From contig CM057474.1 in the NCBI GenBank assembly GCA_030035585.1, positions 4,520,501 through 4,584,500 of the forward strand: a stretch of 64,000 nt of DNA, given 5' to 3'. The notes beneath the pieces are model-generated. The model was given only the letters and a program-made list of their open reading frames with translations, ran no database searches and was not told where the DNA came from. Origin of the DNA: Dugong dugon (taxonomy: Eukaryota > Chordata > Mammalia > Sirenia > Dugongidae). Each line of letters begins with the position of its first letter. The first letter of the stretch is position 1. The position numbers were made by a program, and so were the translations under genes. Positions 1,188 to 62,966 of the stretch are shown one piece after another.

Positions 1188-1469
1188 GTTTGAGAGTAAA
1201 AGAGGTCGTTATTAATAATTCCACCAGGACAACAAGCGTAAACCAAGACTATGGGGGAAGGCAGGACGTATGGTCACTCTAGAGCTAATTCAATTTTGTA
1301 ATATTTAGGTATTTAATAACATACAAGACATAAAAAACATACCAGACAAAATAGTTCTGGTGTGAAAGAAGACATAACCTCTCTTATAAGATAGTTTCTT
1401 ATATTCATCATGTTGAAGAGGGTCTATGGACTTTAAGCACTCTGTGGAGAAATTAAATAAAGCATATTG

Positions 1470-2011
1470 GTATATTTTTTATTGTGGTGGAAATATACAC
1501 GTCAAAACAGTTGCCAGCACAACAACTGACACTGATTACATTTTTCATGGAGTGCCACCATTATCACTATCCTTTTCCAAAATATTTCACCACTGTTAAC
1601 GTAAACTCAATGCCCTCCAAACAGAAACTTCCTCTTTCCCCCTCCCTCCCACCCCCAATAACCATGAATAATCTTTAGTTTCTGTATATTTGCTTATTTC
1701 ATATAAGTGAGATCATACAGTATTTGTCCTTTTGTGACGAACTAATTTTGCTCAGCATAATGTTTCCAGGATTCCTCCATGTTGTACCATGGATAAGAAC
1801 TTCATCTCTCTTCGTGGCTGCATAATATTCCATTATATGTGTATACCACACTTTGTTCATTCATTCGTTTGTTGACAGACATTTGATTGTTTCACCTTTT
1901 GACTATTGCGAAAAAGTGACGCAGTGAACATCGGTCTGCAGGTTTCTGTTTGCGTTCCTGCCTTCACGTCTTCTGGGTATATACCTAGGACTGGGATTGC
2001 TGGGTCATATG
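1470..2011 (-). mobile_element. L1 LINE 3' end, part 1 of a split copy
   Basis: It carries the antisense L1 3' UTR and ORF2 3' landmarks 'gatcatacagtatttgtcc', 'ctcagcataatgtttccagg' and 'gggattgctgggtcatatg'. The copy is interrupted by a solo LTR at 2012 and resumes at 2495. The 3' terminus is at the left, next to a T-rich run. Confidence 0.85.
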
Positions 2012-2494
2012 TGTCTCAGGCTGGGTTCTCTAGAGAAGCAAAACCAGTAAAGTGTATAAATATGTATATATAGAGAGATTATATCAAGGAAACAGCTCAC
2101 GTGATTGTAGAGGCTAGAACATCCCAAGTCCGTGGATCAGGGTAGAGGCCTCTCCCAAGTCACACAGCTGCAGAAACTGGCAAGCCCAAGATCGGCAGGT
2201 CAGAGAGCAGGGCTCCCGCTCACCGGCTGTGCAGATCGATGAATCCCAGGTTCGGCAGATAAGCTGATAGCTCAAGTCCCAGGAATGGGAGATGAGACAA
2301 CAGGAAGCAGCTGCAGGATCCAGAGAGAGCAAAAAGCCAGAACGTCTGCTTATATACAGGTGTGGGCCACACCCCCAAGGAGACTCCCTTTCATCTGATT
2401 GGCTACTCACAGTATATTCAATCATGGGAGTGATTACATTAAAACACTGAGAATCATGGCCCAGCCAAGCTGACACACAATCTTAACCATCACA
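2012..2494. mobile_element. Solo LTR, ERVL/MLT2-like, with 5-bp target duplication
   Basis: This 483-bp unit starts TG (tgtctcaggctgggtt) and ends CA (taaccatcaca), and sits inside an L1. Both sides carry ATATG (2007-2011 and 2495-2499), a 5-bp target duplication as made by ERVL-type elements. The phrases 'gggttctctagagaagcaaa' and 'cagccaagctgacacacaa' resemble MLT2-type LTRs from memory. No internal retroviral sequence remains, so it arose by recombination between two LTRs. A truncated second copy lies at 42713. Strand is probably + but not certain. Confidence 0.8.
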
Positions 2495-2858: not shown

Positions 2859-3010
2859 AATCTGCTCTTTTTATATCTCAAAGGTAATTAAGTTTAAGAC
2901 ACCCTACTCTGATATGGCCTCATTAACATAACAAAGAAACCCTATTTCCAAATCAGTTTACATTCACAGGTGTGGGCGTTAGGATTCCAAAATTCCAATT
3001 CAATCCATAA
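2859..3010 (-). repeat. MaLR-like LTR relic (partial)
   Basis: The phrases 'gatatggcctcattaacata' and 'caggtgtgggcgttaggatt' match the antisense of MaLR-type LTRs as I remember them; the same block recurs at 27030-27110. Confidence 0.45.
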
Positions 3011-3079
3011 CAAGCGGGTAATGCAAGTAAAGCACTTAGCACGTTTTTTTGGTACACAGGAGCACTCAGTGAAGAGTGA

Positions 3080-3265
3080 CTTTCTTTTCCTTCTTCTTCC
3101 ACCTCCTTTTCCTCCTCTTCTCCTACCTTTACCCTCTCCTCTCAGGGGTCAACCGCAGCAGAGGCCGCAGTTGGGACTTGATGGGGAGGCTGAAGCGGGT
3201 GAGCAGGAGCTGCTCCAGGGTCCAGGCCAGGCGGCACCCTCCGTGATGCTCACCAGTTCCTGGGG
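3080..3265. other. Pyrimidine-rich block followed by a GC-rich stretch, unassigned
   Basis: A CTT/CCT-rich run (3085-3147) leads into a locally GC-rich, repeat-free segment (3147-3260) reading openly on both strands. I could not match it to a known protein in any frame, and no splice or retrocopy signature stood out. Confidence 0.3.
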
Positions 3266-3479
3266 ACAGTCTGAGGTGGGATCCTTCATTGCCCTATTCA
3301 GAGGGAGTTCAAAGTTTCATAACCTGAGTATTTAAAATCATGACCCTATTTCTGGTGAGGCCAGGAAGTATCAATTAAACGTAAAATTGGGATGTTACTC
3401 AATTCAGAGAACTGCTATGAGAATTCAGTGGAAGAACTTATGTACAGGGTCTAGCACAGTGTTGGCCTAGCTCTGTGGT

Positions 3480-4785
3480 TACCTTACACGTTTACTTCTC
3501 CCTAGAAGACTCCGTAGGAGTTACGATGAACGAGGAAGTGTCACCCCGAAGGCTGTTTCTCTACTCGTGGAGGAGGCAGACCCCCCATGCCCCACATCAG
3601 CCCCCGGAAGAGTCCTTCTGAATGGCCGCTCATTCTTTAATCAGATCAGAGGACTAGGTCAATATTTAGATTTATAGGATCTCATTCCTGACCAAATGTC
3701 AAGAAGCAGAATAGAGGAAAATTTTTGTGACTTCTGTTTGATTTGTATTGATGATGACATTTCCATAGCTTGTAATTTTTGTCAGTAAAAAAAAAAAAAA
3801 AATCTGCATTAAATACATAACAAAGATTTCATTTTAGGCAGTGAAGCGTGTGAGAACAATGGTGGCATTTTGTTCTTCCTTCACTGTGTTTGTGATACAT
3901 ACGAGCGCTTTGCAAACCAGCAAGGGTGCCGGCCAGTTGCTTGTACAGACACAAAGATAAATCTTCTCGGAAGAAATTAAGTGAAGGATGTAGGCCATTA
4001 GCTAAGACTCCTGGAGCACTTTATCCTAGTCTATAAGGACTGAAAGATGGACGTTTGAGATTTGGTAAGATACACGATATAATCTTTTAAAGCAAAGCTG
4101 TTTGTTTCTATGTCTCTATTTTTTCAGTAGATAATGGATGGATGAAGAGTTAAGCAACCATTTCACCAGGCATTAAGTACCTTAACTGAATTATGAATAT
4201 AGAATTGCAGTATGAGATGTATATAAACAGGAGCACCCTGTTGGAGCTGGAAGCAGGACATTAATTTTTCTTAAAGCCATAAACGTGGAAGGACTAGACA
4301 AGGAAGGTCAGAGAGAGTGAAGAGTCATATTCAATCACATGAACAAATGATGCCCTCATTATTTGTACCGCACTTGCTCTTTCTCACACATGGCCGTCCC
4401 TGACCACTCCCACCTCTGAGGATGGTGTTTTTTGGTGGGCAGGAGCCCCCTACAGTGGCAGTGCCAACAGAAATGGGGGAGCTCACTGATAATGACTGGG
4501 ACCCACGGAGCGTCCTGGGCTCAGTTTCTCTCTCTCTGGCTTGAGGTTCAATTTCCTATTTCCCTGCGTGGCCCATGGTTTCAGAGTCCCAGGTCAAAGG
4601 GCCCATTTTCATCCACCTCTGCATGTATCTCATGCACATTTGAACATGCGTCTGCAAACTGAACGTTTCAGGACCTGGCATGGGGTAGTGATTCAAGCTG
4701 TCCTTCAAAGGTCACCGAGCCAACTTAGCACCTGAAGGTGGAAGGACCAGCAGCCCCACAGGGCAAAGTCCTGGCCTTTAGAATT
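3480..4785. other. Unannotated non-coding stretch
   Basis: No recognisable gene or young repeat was seen. The ORFs at 4432-4735 are short, lack family resemblance and look like chance. Confidence 0.5.
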
Positions 4786-34836: not shown

Positions 34837-35113
34837 TTTATATATAATTTTATTTGTTTTGTTGTTGTTGTTGAGAATATACACAGAAAAACACACACCA
34901 ATTCAGGAGGTTCTCCATGAACCATTCAGTGACATTGGTTACATTCTTCGAGTTGTACAGCCATTCTCACCCTCCTTTTCTGAGTTGTTCCTCCCCCGTT
35001 AACATACACTCACTGCCCCCTAAGGTTCCTGTCTAATCTTTCGAGTTGCTGTTGTCAGTTTGATCCCATATAGATCTTAAAAGAGCATAATGCTCGAGGC
35101 AGACAGAAAGTCC
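34837..35113 (-). mobile_element. L1 3' end, 5' truncated, with 10-bp target duplication
   Basis: ATAATTCTTT flanks it at 34827-34836 and 35114-35123. It carries 'gagaatatacacagaaaaac' and 'ttctgagttgttcctccccc', the L1 tail type also found at 42385 and 60050. Confidence 0.88.
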
Positions 35114-42384: not shown

Positions 42385-42712
42385 GTTTATTTTATTTTTG
42401 TTGTCATGGAGAATATACACAGCAAAAAATACACCAATTCAAATTTCTACATGTACATTTCAGTGACATTGATTACATTCTTTGAGTTGTCAACCATTCT
42501 CACCCTCCCTTTCTGACTGCCCCCTCAGGTTCCTATCTAATACTTCAAGTAGCTGTTGTCACTTTGATCCCGTATAGACAGTTCTTAAAAGAGCATAATG
42601 CTCAAGGCAGACATTCATTAGTAGTTAAGCTAACTATTGTTTGGTTTTAAGAAGACTTCAGGGGATATTTTTGGTTTAAGGTTTAAAGATTATCTCAGGG
42701 CAATAGTTTCAG
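42385..42712 (-). mobile_element. L1 tail, split by an ERVL-type LTR fragment (3' part)
   Basis: The tail type of 34837 and 60050: 'ggagaatatacacagcaaaa', 'gttgtcaaccattctcaccc' and 'aagagcataatgctcaaggc'. It stops at 'caatagtttcag', where the undisturbed copy at 60050 continues. Confidence 0.8.
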
Positions 42713-42979: not shown

Positions 42980-43430
42980 GGGGGTTTCTCTAGCCTCCAT
43001 GGCTCCAGAAAGGCTAAATTCCATGGAAGTTTGAAATTCTGTTCTGCATTTTCCCCCTTTTGATCAGGATTCTTCTATAGACTCTTTGCTGAAAATGTTC
43101 AGTAATGGTAGATGGGTACCATCCACTTCTTCTGGTCTCCTGGCAAAGGAGGCATGTTGTTCACGGAGGCAATTAGCCACACTTTCCATTTCCTTCTCCT
43201 TTTCCTGACTGTCCTTCTTCCTTTGTTGCTCCAGGCAGATAGAGACCAATTGCTGTGCCTTGGATAGCGGCTTGCAAGCTTTTAAGACCAATGCATGATG
43301 CAGCAAAGTAGGAGATAGAACAGAAGCACTAAACACTCTACTAGGCCAGTTAACTGGGATGTCCCATAAACCTCCAAACCAGGGAACCAAATCCCATGAG
43401 GTTTTTGGTTGTAGCAGCCTCAGCAGCTGC
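42980..43430 (-). mobile_element. L1 tail continuing past the LTR fragment
   Basis: 'tccatggctccagaaaggct' and 'aattctgttctgcattttcc' continue the L1 3' UTR in the same order as at 60415. It then includes 'gcggcttgcaagcttttaag', shared with the 3' UTR at 41282 and 44001. Confidence 0.8.
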
Positions 43431-43748
43431 TCTTTTTTTTTTTTTTTTTGGTCATTGTTGTAAATTGTTTGCCAATTCAACTTTTTACAGGTGTACAACT
43501 TATTGATAGCAATTACAGTAATTGGCTGTGCAACCCTACCCTTAATCAACGTGATATTTCCATCACCATTAACCCCCACCCCCCTTTTCCCTATCTCCCG
43601 CCCTTGGTAACCACTAATAAAATTTGGTCTCTATACATTTGCCTTTTCTTGTCTTTTTATGTAAGTGAGGTCATACAGTATTTGTCCTTTTGTGACTGAC
43701 TTATTTCACTCAGCATAATGTCTTCCAGCTCCTTTAAGTTGTATATGC
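43431..43748 (-). mobile_element. L1 3' end, separate copy
   Basis: It starts with a T-run (43431-43449) and 'ggtcattgttgtaaattgtt', then reaches 'gtgaggtcatacagtatttg' and 'tcactcagcataatgtcttc'. Confidence 0.8.
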
Positions 43749-43756
43749 CCGATAAA

Positions 43757-43912
43757 CCAAATCCGTGCTGTTGTATTGATCCTGACTCATAGTGACCCTA
43801 AAGGAGAAAGTAGAACTGCCACATAGGGTTTCCAAGGAGCAGCTGGTGGATTCGAACTACTGACCTTTTGGTTAGCAGCTGTAGCTCTTAACCATTGCAC
43901 CACCAGGGCTCC
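43757..43912 (-). repeat. AfroSINE
   Basis: The flanks 'atgcccgata' and 'atgcccaata' look like a diverged 10-bp target duplication. It sits in the outer end of the palindrome's left arm. Confidence 0.9.
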
Positions 43913-55663: not shown

Positions 55664-55680
55664 CCACCTGGAATATTTTT
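55664..55680. repeat. Target-site direct repeat, copy 1
   Basis: CCACCTGGAATATTTTT, identical to 60033-60049 and 60548-60564. It is followed by the T-run that marks the 3' end of the L1. Confidence 0.92.
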
Positions 55681-58600
55681 TTTTTTCCTTTTGTGATTGA
55701 TTTATTTCACTCAGCATAATGGCCTCCAGTTTCATCCATGTTATGAGATGGTTCACAGATTCATTGTTGTTCCTTCTCATTGCATAGTACTCCATTGTGT
55801 GTATGTACCATAGTTTGTTTATCCATTCATCTGTTGATGGTCATCTAGGTTGTTTCCATCATTTTGCTATTGTGAACAATGCTGCCATGAACATAGGTGT
55901 GCATATGTCTATTCGAGTGATGACTCTTATTTATCAAAGATATAATCCTAGGAGTGGGATTGCTGGATTGAATGGTATGTCTATTTCTAGCTTTCTGAGG
56001 AAGCGCCATATCATTTTCCAAAAGGGTTGTATCATTTTGCATTCCCACCAGCAGTGCATAAGAGTTCCGATCTCCCTGCAGCCTCTCCAACATTTCCACT
56101 GTTTTTGATTCGTGCCAGTAATGCCGGGATGAGATGATATCTCATTGTGGTTTTAATTTGCATTTCTCTAATGGCTAGTGATCCCGAGCATTTCCTAATG
56201 TTTCTGTTGGCCATTTGAATGTCTTCTTTGGTGAAGTGTCTGTTCATTTCCTTTGCCCATTTTTTAACAGGATTATTTGTCTTTTTGTTGTACAGGTGTT
56301 GGATTTTCTTGTAGATTATGGAGATTAGACCTTTGTCTGACTTGTACCGTCCAAAAATTTTTTTCCCAATCTGTAGGTTCTCTTTTTAATCTTTTGGTGA
56401 AGTCTTTTGAAGAGGATAGGTGTTTGATTTTTAGCAGATCCCAGTTATCTAGCTTACCTGTTGGGGCTTGTGCATTGATGGTTATGGTTTGTATCCTGTT
56501 AATGCCATGTATTAAGGACTGAAGTGTTGGTCCTATTTTTTCTTCTATGAACTTTATAGTTTTAGGCTTTATATTCAGGTTTTGATCCATTTTGAAGTAG
56601 TTTTTGTATACGGTGTGAGGTATGGGTCCTGTTTCATTTTTTTGCAGATGGATATCCAGTTTTGCCAGCACCATTTGTTAAAAAGAGTGTCTTTTCCCCA
56701 TTTGATGGACTTTGGGCCCTTGTCGAAGATCTGGTGACCGTAGGTGACCGTAGACCAATTCTGTTCCATTGGTCAATGTATCCGTCTTACCGGTACCAGG
56801 CTGTTTTGACTACTGTAGCTGTATAGTAGGTTCTGAAGTCAGGTAGTGTGAGTCCTCCAACTTTATTCTTCTTCTTCAGTAGTGCTTTACTTATTTGGGG
56901 CTTCTTCCCTTTCCATATAAAGTTAATGATTAGTTTTTCCATCTCTTTGAAGAATGTTGTTGGTATTTGGATCGGAATTGCATTGTATTTGTAAATTGCT
57001 TTGGGTAGAATTGACATTTTCACAATTTTGAGTCTACCTATCCATGAGCATGGTATGTTTTCCCATTTATGTAGATCCCTTTGGGTTTCTTGCAGTAGTG
57101 TTTTGTAGTTTTCTTTGTATAGGTCTTTTACATTCCTGGTCAGATTTATTCCTAAGTATTTTATATTTTTAGGGGCTATTGAAAATGGTATTGCTTTCCT
57201 GATTTCCTTTTCATCGTTCTCCTTATTGGTGTATAGGAATCCAACTCATTTTTGAATGTTTATCTTGTATCCTGCTACTCTGCTGAATCTTTCTGTTAGT
57301 TCCAGTAGATTTCTCGTGGAGTCTTTAGGGTTTTCTGTGTATACTATCATATCATCTGCAAACAGGGAGAGTTTACCTTCTTCATTACCAATTTGGATGC
57401 CCTTTATTTCTTTCTCTTGCCTTATTGCTCTAGCTAGAACTTCCAGCACAATGTTAAGTAGGAGTGGTAATAAAGGGCATCCTTGTCTTGTTCCTGTTTT
57501 CAAGGGGAATATTTTCAGCCTCTCTCCATTAAGAATGATGTTGGCCATTGGTTTTGCATAGATGCCCTTTATTGTGTTGAGAAATTTCCCTTCTATACTT
57601 ATTTTATTGAGAGTTTTTATCAGGAATGGGTGTTGGACTTTGTCAAATGCCTTTTCTGCATCAATTGAGATGATCATGTGATTCTTTTCTTTCCTTTTAT
57701 TTATGTGGTGGATTACGTTGATTGATTTTCTAATGTTGAACCATTCTTGCATACCTGGTATGCATCCTACTTAGTCGTGGTGTATTATTTTTTTTGGATA
57801 TGATGCTGAATTCTGTTGGCTAGAATTTTGTTGAGAATTTTTGCGTCTATAGTCTTGAGAGATATTGGCCCGTAATTTTCTTTTTTTTTGACGTCTTTTC
57901 CTGGTTTTGGTATCAACATTGTGCTGCCTTCATAGAATGTATTTGGAAGTGTTGCTTCCTCTTCTGTGCTCTGAAATAGCTTGAGTAGTACTGGTATAAG
58001 CTCTTCTGTAAATGTTTTGTAGAATTCTCCAGTGAAGTCATCTGGGCCAGGGGCTTTTTTGGTTGGGAGTTTTTTTTTTATTACCTTTTCAATCTCTTCT
58101 CTTGTTATGGGTCTGTTCAGATTTTCAACATCACTTTGTTGTAGTTTGGGTAGGCTGTGTGTTTCTAGAAATTTATCCATTTCCTCTAGGTTTTCAACTT
58201 TGTTGGAGTAGAGTTTTTCATAATGTTCTGTTATATTCCTTTTTATTCCAGTTGGGTATGTTGTAATGTCCCCCATTTCATTTCTTATTTGGGTTATTTG
58301 TGTCCTCTCCTGTTTTTCTTTTGTCAGGCTGGCCAGTGGTTTGTCGATTTTGTTGATTCTTTCAAAGAACCAACTTTTGGTTTTGTTGATTCTTTCTATT
58401 GTTTTTCTGTTCTCTATTTCATTTATTTCTGCTCTGATCTTTACTATTTCCTTTCTTCCGGTGGTTGTGGGCTTTTTTTGCTGTTCTCTATTTGTTTGAG
58501 TTCTGTAGTTAATGTTTTGATTTTGTCCCTTTCTTCTTTTTTGATATGTGCATCTATTGCTATAAATTGTCCTCTGAGGACTGCCTTTGCTGTATCCCAA

Positions 58601-59658
58601 AGGTTTTGGTATGCTGTGTTTTCATTCTCATTTGATTCTAGGAATTTTTTGATTCTATCTCTGATTTCTTCTATTACCCAGTGATGTGTAAGCAGGGTAT
58701 TATTCAGTTTCCATGTAATTGATTTTTTTTCCTTGCTCTTTCTGTTGTTAATTTCTACCTTGATGGCATTGTGGTCAGAGAAGATACTTTGAAATATCTC
58801 AGCGTTTTGGATCTTGTTTAGGATTGCTGTGTGGTCTAAGATGTGGTCTATTCTGCAGAACGTTCCATGTGCATTGGAAAAGAATGTGTACTTTGCAGCA
58901 GTTGGATGGAGTGTTCTATATATGTCTGTGAGGTCAAGTTGGCTGATTGTGCCCTTTAGGTCTTCTGTATCTTTGCTGAGTTTCTTCTTAGTTGTTCTGT
59001 CCTTTACTGAGAGTGGTGTGTTGAAGTCTCCTACTATTATTTGTGGAACTGTCAATTTCTCTTTTCAGTGTTGTTAAAGTTTGTTTTATGTATTTTGGAA
59101 CCCTGTCATTGGGTGCCTAGATGGTTTATTATGGTCATGTCTTCATGATGGATTGTCCCCTTAATCATTATAGTGCCCTTCTTTGTCTTTTATGGTAGAT
59201 TTTGTTTTAAAGTCTATTTTATCTGAGATTAGAATTGCCACTCCTGCTCTTTTTTGGTAGTTGTTAGCTTGATATATTTTTTTCCAACCTTTGACTTTTA
59301 ATAAATTCACATCTTTGTTTCTAAAGTGTGTCTCTTGTAGACAGCATATTGATGGATCCTGTTTTCTTATCCATTCTGCCACTCTCCGTCTCTTTATGGG
59401 TGCATTGAGTCCATTTACATTCAGTGTAATTATTGATAGATGTGGGTTTGTTGTTGTCATTTTGTAGTGCTTTTTTTTGTGGTGCTGACATTTTCTTTGT
59501 TCTTCTTATTCTCTTGTGCTGAGTTACTTTTGTTTGTGGATTTTTGTTTCATTTCTTTTGTTTTTGTAGGTTTTGTTTTTGCTGAGACTTTATGTTTTTC
59601 CTCTTTTTTGCAATGAGTATGTTTGTTAACTTCCTTTGTGGTTACCATAAATTTTGCA
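55681..59658 (-). mobile_element. L1 LINE, about 4 kb, 3' part of a chimeric L1-28S rRNA insertion
   Basis: It runs antisense from a T-run (55676-55686) through ORF2. Domains in element order: endonuclease (59460 down to about 58700, NVNGLNAPIKRRRVAEWIRK at the start, SDHNAI near its end), reverse transcriptase (58100 to 57250, with [16 protein letters not shown] and LFADDMIVY), and the C-terminal region to about 56200. ORF2 is broken: a nonsense codon at 57771-57773, a shift near 58480, and disruption near 59160-59055. The RT YXDD-box equivalent (FADD) is retained. It lacks the long L1 3' UTR and ends 14 bases after an AATAAA (complement at 55701-55706). Confidence 0.95.
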
Positions 59659-59802
59659 AGGCCGGCGGACCCCGCCCCACACCCCTCACGGGGAAAGCGG
59701 AGGGGCGCCAGGGGCCTCCTACTTATTCTACACCTCTCATGTCTCTTCATTGTGCCAGACTATAGTCAAGCTCAACAGGGTCTTCTTTCCCCACTGATTC
59801 CG

Positions 59803-59833
<31 letters not shown>

Positions 59834-59913
59834 GTATAGTAGGTAGGGACAGTGGGAATCTCGTTCATCCATTCACGCACGTCACTGATTAGATGACGAG
59901 GCATTTGGCTACG

Positions 59914-59953
<40 letters not shown>

Positions 59954-60032
59954 CATTGAATTTCTTCACTTTGACATACAGAGCACTGGGCAGAAATCAC
60001 ATCACGTCAACACCCGCCGCGGGCCTTCGCAA
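59659..60032 (-). pseudogene. 28S rRNA fragment fused to the 5' end of the L1
   Basis: About 374 bp read in antisense as a conserved core piece of 28S ribosomal RNA, from 'gcgaaggcccgcggcggg' at 60030 through 'gtgatttctgcccagtgctc', 'aactatgactctcttaacg', 'gggattccgcc'-type stretches and 'gacatgagaggtgtagaata' down to 'gcggggtccgccggcc'. It contains the R2 retrotransposon target region, with one change (ttaacgtagcc for ttaaggtagcc). Differences from the remembered rRNA are few, many at CpG sites. rRNA sense and L1 sense run in the same direction, with rRNA upstream, as expected if reverse transcription of L1 RNA jumped to 28S rRNA. It is not a working rRNA gene. Confidence 0.95.
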
Positions 60033-60049
60033 CCACCTGGAATATTTTT
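60033..60049. repeat. Target-site direct repeat, copy 2
   Basis: CCACCTGGAATATTTTT directly after the 28S fragment. It closes the chimeric insertion and begins the next one. Confidence 0.92.
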
Positions 60050-60547
60050 AAAAAATTTGTTTATTTTGTTGTCCTTATTGAGAATGTACACCGCAAAACA
60101 TAACACCACTTCAGCAATTTCTACATGTACAGTTCAGTGACATTGATTATATTCTTTGAGTTTTGCAGCTATTCTCACCCTCCTTTTCTGAGTTGTTCCT
60201 CCCCCATTAATGTAAATTCACTTCCCCCTAAGGTTTCTGTCTAATATTTCAAGTTACTGTTGTCAATTTCATCGCATATAGATAAATCTTAAAAGAACAC
60301 AATGCTCAAGACAGACATTCTTTACTACTTGAGCTAAACTATTGTTTCATTTTAAGAAGACTTCAGGGAATATTTTTTGTTCAAGGAAGATTATCACAGG
60401 GCAATAGTTTCAGGGGTTCATCCAGCCTTCATGGCTCCAGAAAGTCTGCATTCCATGAGAATTTGAAATTTTGTTCTGTGATTTATCCCTCTTGATCAAA
60501 ATTCTTCTATAGAATCTTTCATCAAAATGTTCAATAATGGTAGCCGG
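60050..60547 (-). mobile_element. L1 tail copy between target repeats 2 and 3
   Basis: An L1 3' UTR fragment with an A/T-rich left end, then 'gagaatgtacaccgcaaaac', 'cattgattatattctttgag', 'cttcagggaatattttttgt' and 'ttcatggctccagaaagtct'. It ends in gtagccgg before the third target repeat. The same tail type occurs at 34837 and 42385. Confidence 0.9.
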
Positions 60548-62789: not shown

Positions 62790-62966
62790 TACCCACTGCC
62801 ATTGAGTCGGTTCAGACTCATAGCGACCCCATAGGGTTTCTAAGGCCGTAAATCTCTACAGAAGCAGACTGCCACATCTTTCTCCCATGGAGCCACCAGG
62901 TGGTTTCAAACCACCAACCTTTCGGTTAGCAGTCGATCGCTTTAACCACTGCGCCACCAGGGCTCC
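62790..62966 (-). repeat. AfroSINE, long form
   Basis: 'cccactgccattgagtcggt' at left and 'ccactgcgccaccagggctc' at right. Confidence 0.92.

Follow-up and report, generated by a model that had tools for sequence, protein, structure and literature searches.

A chimeric 28S rRNA-L1 insertion in the dugong genome and two further loci with the same 28S ends

A stretch of 64,000 nucleotides from the dugong, Dugong dugon (GenBank assembly GCA_030035585.1, contig CM057474.1, forward-strand positions 4,520,501 to 4,584,500; hereafter the window, numbered from its first base), contains an inserted block of 4.35 kb in which a piece of 28S ribosomal RNA (rRNA) is fused to a truncated L1 retrotransposon (Table 1). 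The 28S piece lies on the minus strand and the 3' end and tail of the L1 lie at the low-coordinate end, which places the L1 on the minus strand as well, with the 28S at its 5' side: read in the L1 sense, the block consists of 28S, L1 and six A residues. The 28S identity, proposed by an earlier reading made from the sequence alone (the sequence-only reading), was borne out by the Rfam model LSU_rRNA_eukarya, which scored 219.6 bits on the minus strand, at its gathering threshold, and 310.3 bits (E 8.6e-83) on the short stretch 59600-60060. We take the piece to correspond to about nt 3,627-4,003 of the 5,035-nt human 28S; this numbering relies on an approximate human 28S sequence and holds to about ±10 nt, the position of the sarcin-ricin loop suggesting an error of 5-10 nt. 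By blastn, the L1 is 69-90% identical to other L1 copies within the window.

The block is enclosed by two copies of the 17-bp sequence CCACCTGGAATATTTTT, which are 100% identical and occur at its outer ends only. When 40-base stretches from the two outer edges and the inner 28S-L1 junction were compared, the longest common word was 17 between the outer edges, 5 between the left edge and the junction, and 6 between the junction and the right edge; among 3,992 random 40-mer pairs from the window, the longest common word did not exceed 14. The inner junction therefore has no duplication of its own, and different duplications flanking the 28S and the L1, which would have pointed to separate insertions, were not seen. 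On the strand presumed to be nicked, the sequence is GGAATATTTTT/AAAAAATTTG, which conforms well to TTTT/AA; the L1 endonuclease motif is given as TT/AAAA by Law and Burns (2026; PMC13174262). The single enclosing duplication, the gapless same-sense join and the endonuclease-type site together make it well supported that the block is one insertion of a 28S-L1 chimera.

Table 1. Features of the 28S-L1 insertion (window positions)
Feature	Position	Strand	Remarks
Target-site duplication, L1 3' side	55664..55680	+	CCACCTGGAATATTTTT
Short A tail of L1 RNA (6 T on + strand)	55681..55686	-	boundary inside T run conventional
L1, 5'- and 3'-truncated, 3,969 nt	55687..59655	-	blastn to other copies in window and genome
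AATAAA, 14 nt ahead of A tail	55701..55706	-	possible premature polyadenylation signal; function inferred
28S rRNA piece of 377 nt in the L1 sense	59656..60032	-	Rfam and alignments
Target-site duplication, 28S 5' side	60033..60049	+	copy of CCACCTGGAATATTTTT
L1 endonuclease-type site, ..ATTTTT/AAAAAA..	60044..60055	+	nick between 60049 and 60050

A search with the window 28S piece gave at least 22 matches in the genome, and the ends were examined at 21 of these; the match left out, on C12 (L005), is 99.2% identical to one on C174. Three of the 21 loci have 28S that passes directly into a sense L1. These are L001 (the window), L023 (C16:83.08 Mb) and L024 (C21:51.94 Mb). The genome scan for other L1-28S junctions, suggested by the sequence-only reading, thus yielded two more, and three is a lower bound for such chimeras in this genome. 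In all three, the 28S piece finishes at the same base, GGCCTTGC (position 442 of the human 28S region used for comparison), and it starts at positions 66, 67 and 67, respectively, where ..CAT is followed by CGCGAAGG, the start in the window being earlier by perhaps one base. Both ends together recur at none of the remaining 18 loci examined; L028 shares the start, and its 28S runs 51 nt further.

The L1 breakpoints of the three loci differ. That of the window is furthest upstream, at position 1 of the window L1, while the L023 L1 begins at about position 1456 of the window L1 (80% identity) and the L1 part of L024 starts in an old element, within its 3' end. This L024 part gave a Smith-Waterman score of 96 with an old L1 at window positions 1400-2300, against a shuffled maximum of 37 (100 shuffles), and of 68 with an old copy at 43300-43900 (shuffled maximum 41). 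Compared with the approximate human 28S core, there are 13 substitutions in 315 positions in L001 (5 at CpG), 30 in 314 in L023 (14) and 26 in 295 in L024 (11). At L023, CAAATGGAA stands before the 28S 5' edge and again right after the A-rich tail and is probably a short target duplication; 26 of the 3,992 random 40-mer pairs share at least 9 bases. Differing in L1 breakpoints, divergence and flanks, the three loci are separate events, and the window insertion is probably the youngest. A further locus, L014 (C9:18798927, 3001-4642), has the common 28S 5' start followed by 69 nt resembling inverted L1 and then by sense L1 as far as 4642, at which point the 5'-most part of another L1 apparently starts; L014 is not counted as a chimera, the inverted match being marginal (42 versus a shuffled maximum of 40) and no duplication being found. 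L005 and L006/L025 (C12:72.15 Mb and C174) are two 99.2% identical old, long 28S-like copies. Apart from the query, the search with the window 28S piece gave no match above 90%, and functional rDNA was not seen in it.

The position of the junction was fixed by two of these other loci. Where the window has GGCCTTGCAAAATTTATGGTAACC, an L1 copy at L028 has ..GGGTAAAATTGATGGTAACC, and the 28S-like copies that run on, at L009 and L028, read GGCCTTGC followed by more 28S sequence; TTGC is therefore 28S, and the L1 begins at AAAA (AAAATTTATGG). Judged against these sequences, the window junction has no gap, overlap or extra base. It also has no microhomology, as the L1 starts with A where the next 28S base is G, and the preceding L1 base is T; at the L023 junction microhomology amounts to 0-1 nt. 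The short homology (gc) that the sequence-only reading placed at 59656-59660 is 28S sequence next to a junction set three bases off, and is not supported by the comparison with the L1 copy at L028. Its limits for the 17-bp duplication stand, while the 28S start moves from 59659 to 59656 and the L1 extends over 55687-59655 instead of from 55681. Microhomology or untemplated bases are frequent at template switches, though not obligatory. Neither is present at the window junction, with which an end-to-end jump without homology is compatible.

The 5' end of the 28S pieces recurs beyond the three chimeras. Eighteen loci have their 5' end inside the region (the 21 less L009, L025 and L026, which extend further 5'), and eight of them start at positions 65-70: L001, L010, L013, L014, L020, L023, L024 and L028. 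The start of L013 requires gaps and that of L020 is least certain; L019 may be a ninth. Closer alignment of L010 and L013 weakened the case for another group of 5' ends, near positions 95-99, and it is not claimed.

As a comparison for specificity, the adjacent stretch of 28S gave 26 matches, some rows representing one place, and a sense L1 abutting the 28S 3' end was found at none of the 26 with a library of the window L1 and the L023 L1, which would miss old L1 ends of the L024 type. Short sense L1-like matches lie 445 and 177 nt downstream of the 28S at L052 and L053, respectively, and two matches, L043 and L051, lie inside antisense L1. At L051 (C1:149191704), a 65-nt 28S piece at 1500-1564, 98% identical to the approximate human 28S, sits antisense within an L1 whose sequence on either side of it is 93-95% identical to the window L1; this is rRNA either inserted into an L1 or captured by it. 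At L043 (C10:5226289), the 28S piece at 1445-1672 has antisense L1 on either side. A third, more 3' stretch of 28S gave 37 matches, and 8 of the 37 rows end at query positions 163-169, a cluster that may reflect no more than the onset of a diverged expansion segment.

The L1 part of the window insertion is truncated at its 3' end as well. All six other L1 copies viewed extend beyond it, their sequence there being ..CACAAAAGGACAAATA.., CACAAAAGGACAAATATTG or close to these, and across the genome there are 388 exact matches to a 36-base form that continues. The window L1 stops at CACAAAAGG after AATAAA (55687-55706) though its family continues, and the six T residues of the A tail run on, in the plus strand, into five T residues of the duplication. 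Because other copies continue beyond this point, the L1 RNA appears to have ended early, and the AATAAA 14 nt ahead of the tail suggests that premature polyadenylation may have been responsible. Internal priming is a possible alternative: GGACAAATATTG of other L1 copies has seven bases in common with AAAAATATT of the duplication. It would, however, leave the six extra A residues unexplained.

We consider it very probable that the window insertion arose through a single event of target-primed reverse transcription that captured a discrete 28S fragment of about 377 nt, and that such a fragment was captured independently at least two more times. The shared ends in three independent chimeras argue for a discrete fragment and against random switching within 28S, and a fragment cut beforehand is the simpler account once the constant 3' point seen in all three chimeras is set beside the fixed 5' point; the two ends would then be those of a real RNA. 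The L1 endonuclease would nick the plus strand at TTTTT/AAAAAA, and the T-rich 3' end would prime on the short A tail of a prematurely ended L1 RNA. Reverse transcription would proceed through about 4 kb of L1 and on through the 28S fragment, entering it at ..GGCCTTGC-3' and finishing at its 5' terminus, CGCGAAGG.. The product would be a chimera of 28S and L1, both in sense, within one 17-bp duplication. The RNAs may have been joined by ligation before reverse transcription, or the polymerase may have jumped end to end onto the 3' end of the other RNA. Both fit the constant 28S ends, variable L1 ends and lack of microhomology, and we regard them as about equally likely, leaning slightly to ligation; a constant 28S 3' end on variable L1 positions, seen at all three loci, is a feature of the RNA ligation type known from U6/L1. 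The template switch onto 28S put forward by the sequence-only reading is thus retained as one of two fitting mechanisms, RNA ligation beforehand fitting as well.

Other histories of the locus must be weighed against this one. That two separate events produced it, an L1 landing later beside an existing 28S pseudogene or the reverse, draws on the presence in the genome of 28S pieces without a recognised L1; it is extremely improbable, since the sole long repeat surrounds both parts, the inner matches stop at 5 and 6 bases, and the identical 28S 3' end adjoins L1 at three loci. A mobile composite 28S-L1 family would explain why one 28S piece is common to the three loci, its copies, and is hardly more credible: the L1 breakpoints differ at all three, so each junction was formed anew. 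A more serious contender, though still unlikely, is a single insertion without any discrete fragment, the polymerase having moved onto intact 28S at an internal site and halted at a fixed obstacle. Internal switching has been described for U5 (PMC4476161), and the 28S pieces found without L1 (L010, L013, L020 and L028) share the 5' end while their 3' ends vary, which is what a fixed stop would predict. It leaves the identical 3' end of three chimeras unexplained, however, and the window junction offers no microhomology to guide such a switch. The stop would also fall in the far arm of a hairpin, where a structural block would not be expected.

Several observations weigh against capture of a discrete fragment. 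Only three loci match at both ends, and four of the eight fixed-start loci (L010, L013, L020 and L028) have no adjoining L1 found with the small L1 library; by itself, a fixed 5' end may reflect a stop of the reverse transcriptase. Gapped alignment of L014, L019, L020 and L028 ran upstream to positions 37-48, in short gapped matches that are taken as chance. No duplication was found for L024, and that of L023 is short. The L1 of L024 shows no match to the 3' end of the window L1 itself (35 versus a shuffled maximum of 43), its identity resting on the two other old copies. Folding at the 28S 3' end is not significant (z +0.52 and +0.72), and a hairpin loop as the explanation of that end was dropped for this reason; the 5' end lies inside the 5' arm of a hairpin (z -2.92), not in its loop. 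An RNase L cut of 28S near nt 4,032 gained no support from a literature search and is not used. The commonest cyclic-phosphate cut sites of HeLa 28S, as far as reported in the available part of PMC4005677, exclude these positions, and the human chimeras are more varied in length (50-482 nt; PMC13174262). The sequence-only reading had also attached significance to the R2-target region of 28S. The R2 site does lie within the piece, about 115 nt from its 5' end and about 260 nt from its 3' end; being too far from either, it explains neither and was dropped as a cause.

Chimeras of this kind are already known from human, and the window insertion adds a case. According to the available text of PMC13174262, there are 18 human 28S/L1 chimeras with 28S pieces of median 269 nt (50-482), 83% of them sense; a start near nt 3,636, uncommon in other genomic 28S loci, is frequent, the most frequent region is 3,636-4,115, and ligation or template switching is proposed. 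The dugong insertion resembles these in carrying sense 28S from the same core region joined 5' of a truncated L1, in its length of 377 nt, within the human range, and in a start about 10 nt from 3,636 (in numbering good to about ±10). It differs in belonging to another genome and in having an L1 that is also 3'-truncated; moreover, the start is seen here without a recognised L1 as well. The available text of PMC13174262 mentions no 28S 3' end common to several chimeras; such an end, and the occurrence of a similar start in another genome, go beyond that text. Among literature titles and abstract openings, no other report of 28S/L1 chimeras was found. The description of 28S as an uncommon partner by the sequence-only reading was only partly right, in view of 18 published human chimeras and at least three in this genome.

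U6/L1 chimeras have reportedly been treated by Moldovan 2019, Buzdin and Garcia-Perez. As described by Doucet 2015 (PMC4476161, in the part available), they likewise have a sense RNA on a 5'-truncated L1 within one duplication, with a constant RNA piece and a variable L1 breakpoint. The U6 partner, however, is an entire small RNA that ends naturally, whereas the dugong piece is internal to a 5-kb rRNA. Ligation of U6 to L1 RNA before reverse transcription is reported in the accessible portions of PMC13247085 and PMC13174262. The tailless, 5'-truncated rRNA retropseudogenes of PMC5322556, again from its available text, are alike in being 28S-derived sequences inserted by the L1 machinery and unlike in having no fused L1 sequence.

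An older minus-strand repeat at 60050-60410, at whose A-rich tail side the insertion sits, has copies at 34846-35105 (83%) and 42391-42712 (78%). Transfer RNA (tRNA) predictions at 1111-1184 and 62891-62963 (minus strand) read like heads of short interspersed elements (SINEs), not tRNA genes; the tRNA-like SINE heads of the window presumably resemble AfroSINEs. With up to two mismatches, GGAGCCCTGGTGG has 18 matches in the window (7 on the plus and 11 on the minus strand).

L1 chimeras preserve a record of the RNAs, with their ends, that lay close to replicating L1 in the germ cells of ancestors. Three independent captures with the same two ends, together with a nearby human start, lead to a testable claim: that there is a specific germline cleavage product of 28S, and that this product becomes attached to L1 RNA through its end, whether ligated or reached by a jump. 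We tentatively propose, as a real possibility still short of even odds, that a defined 28S fragment of about 377 nt, running from the CGCG after ..CAT to the TTGC before GGG.., is produced in the germline of mammals and may have been a preferred partner of L1 in the dugong lineage and, as its 5' end suggests, in that of humans; the chimeras would then be a fossil record of an rRNA cut.

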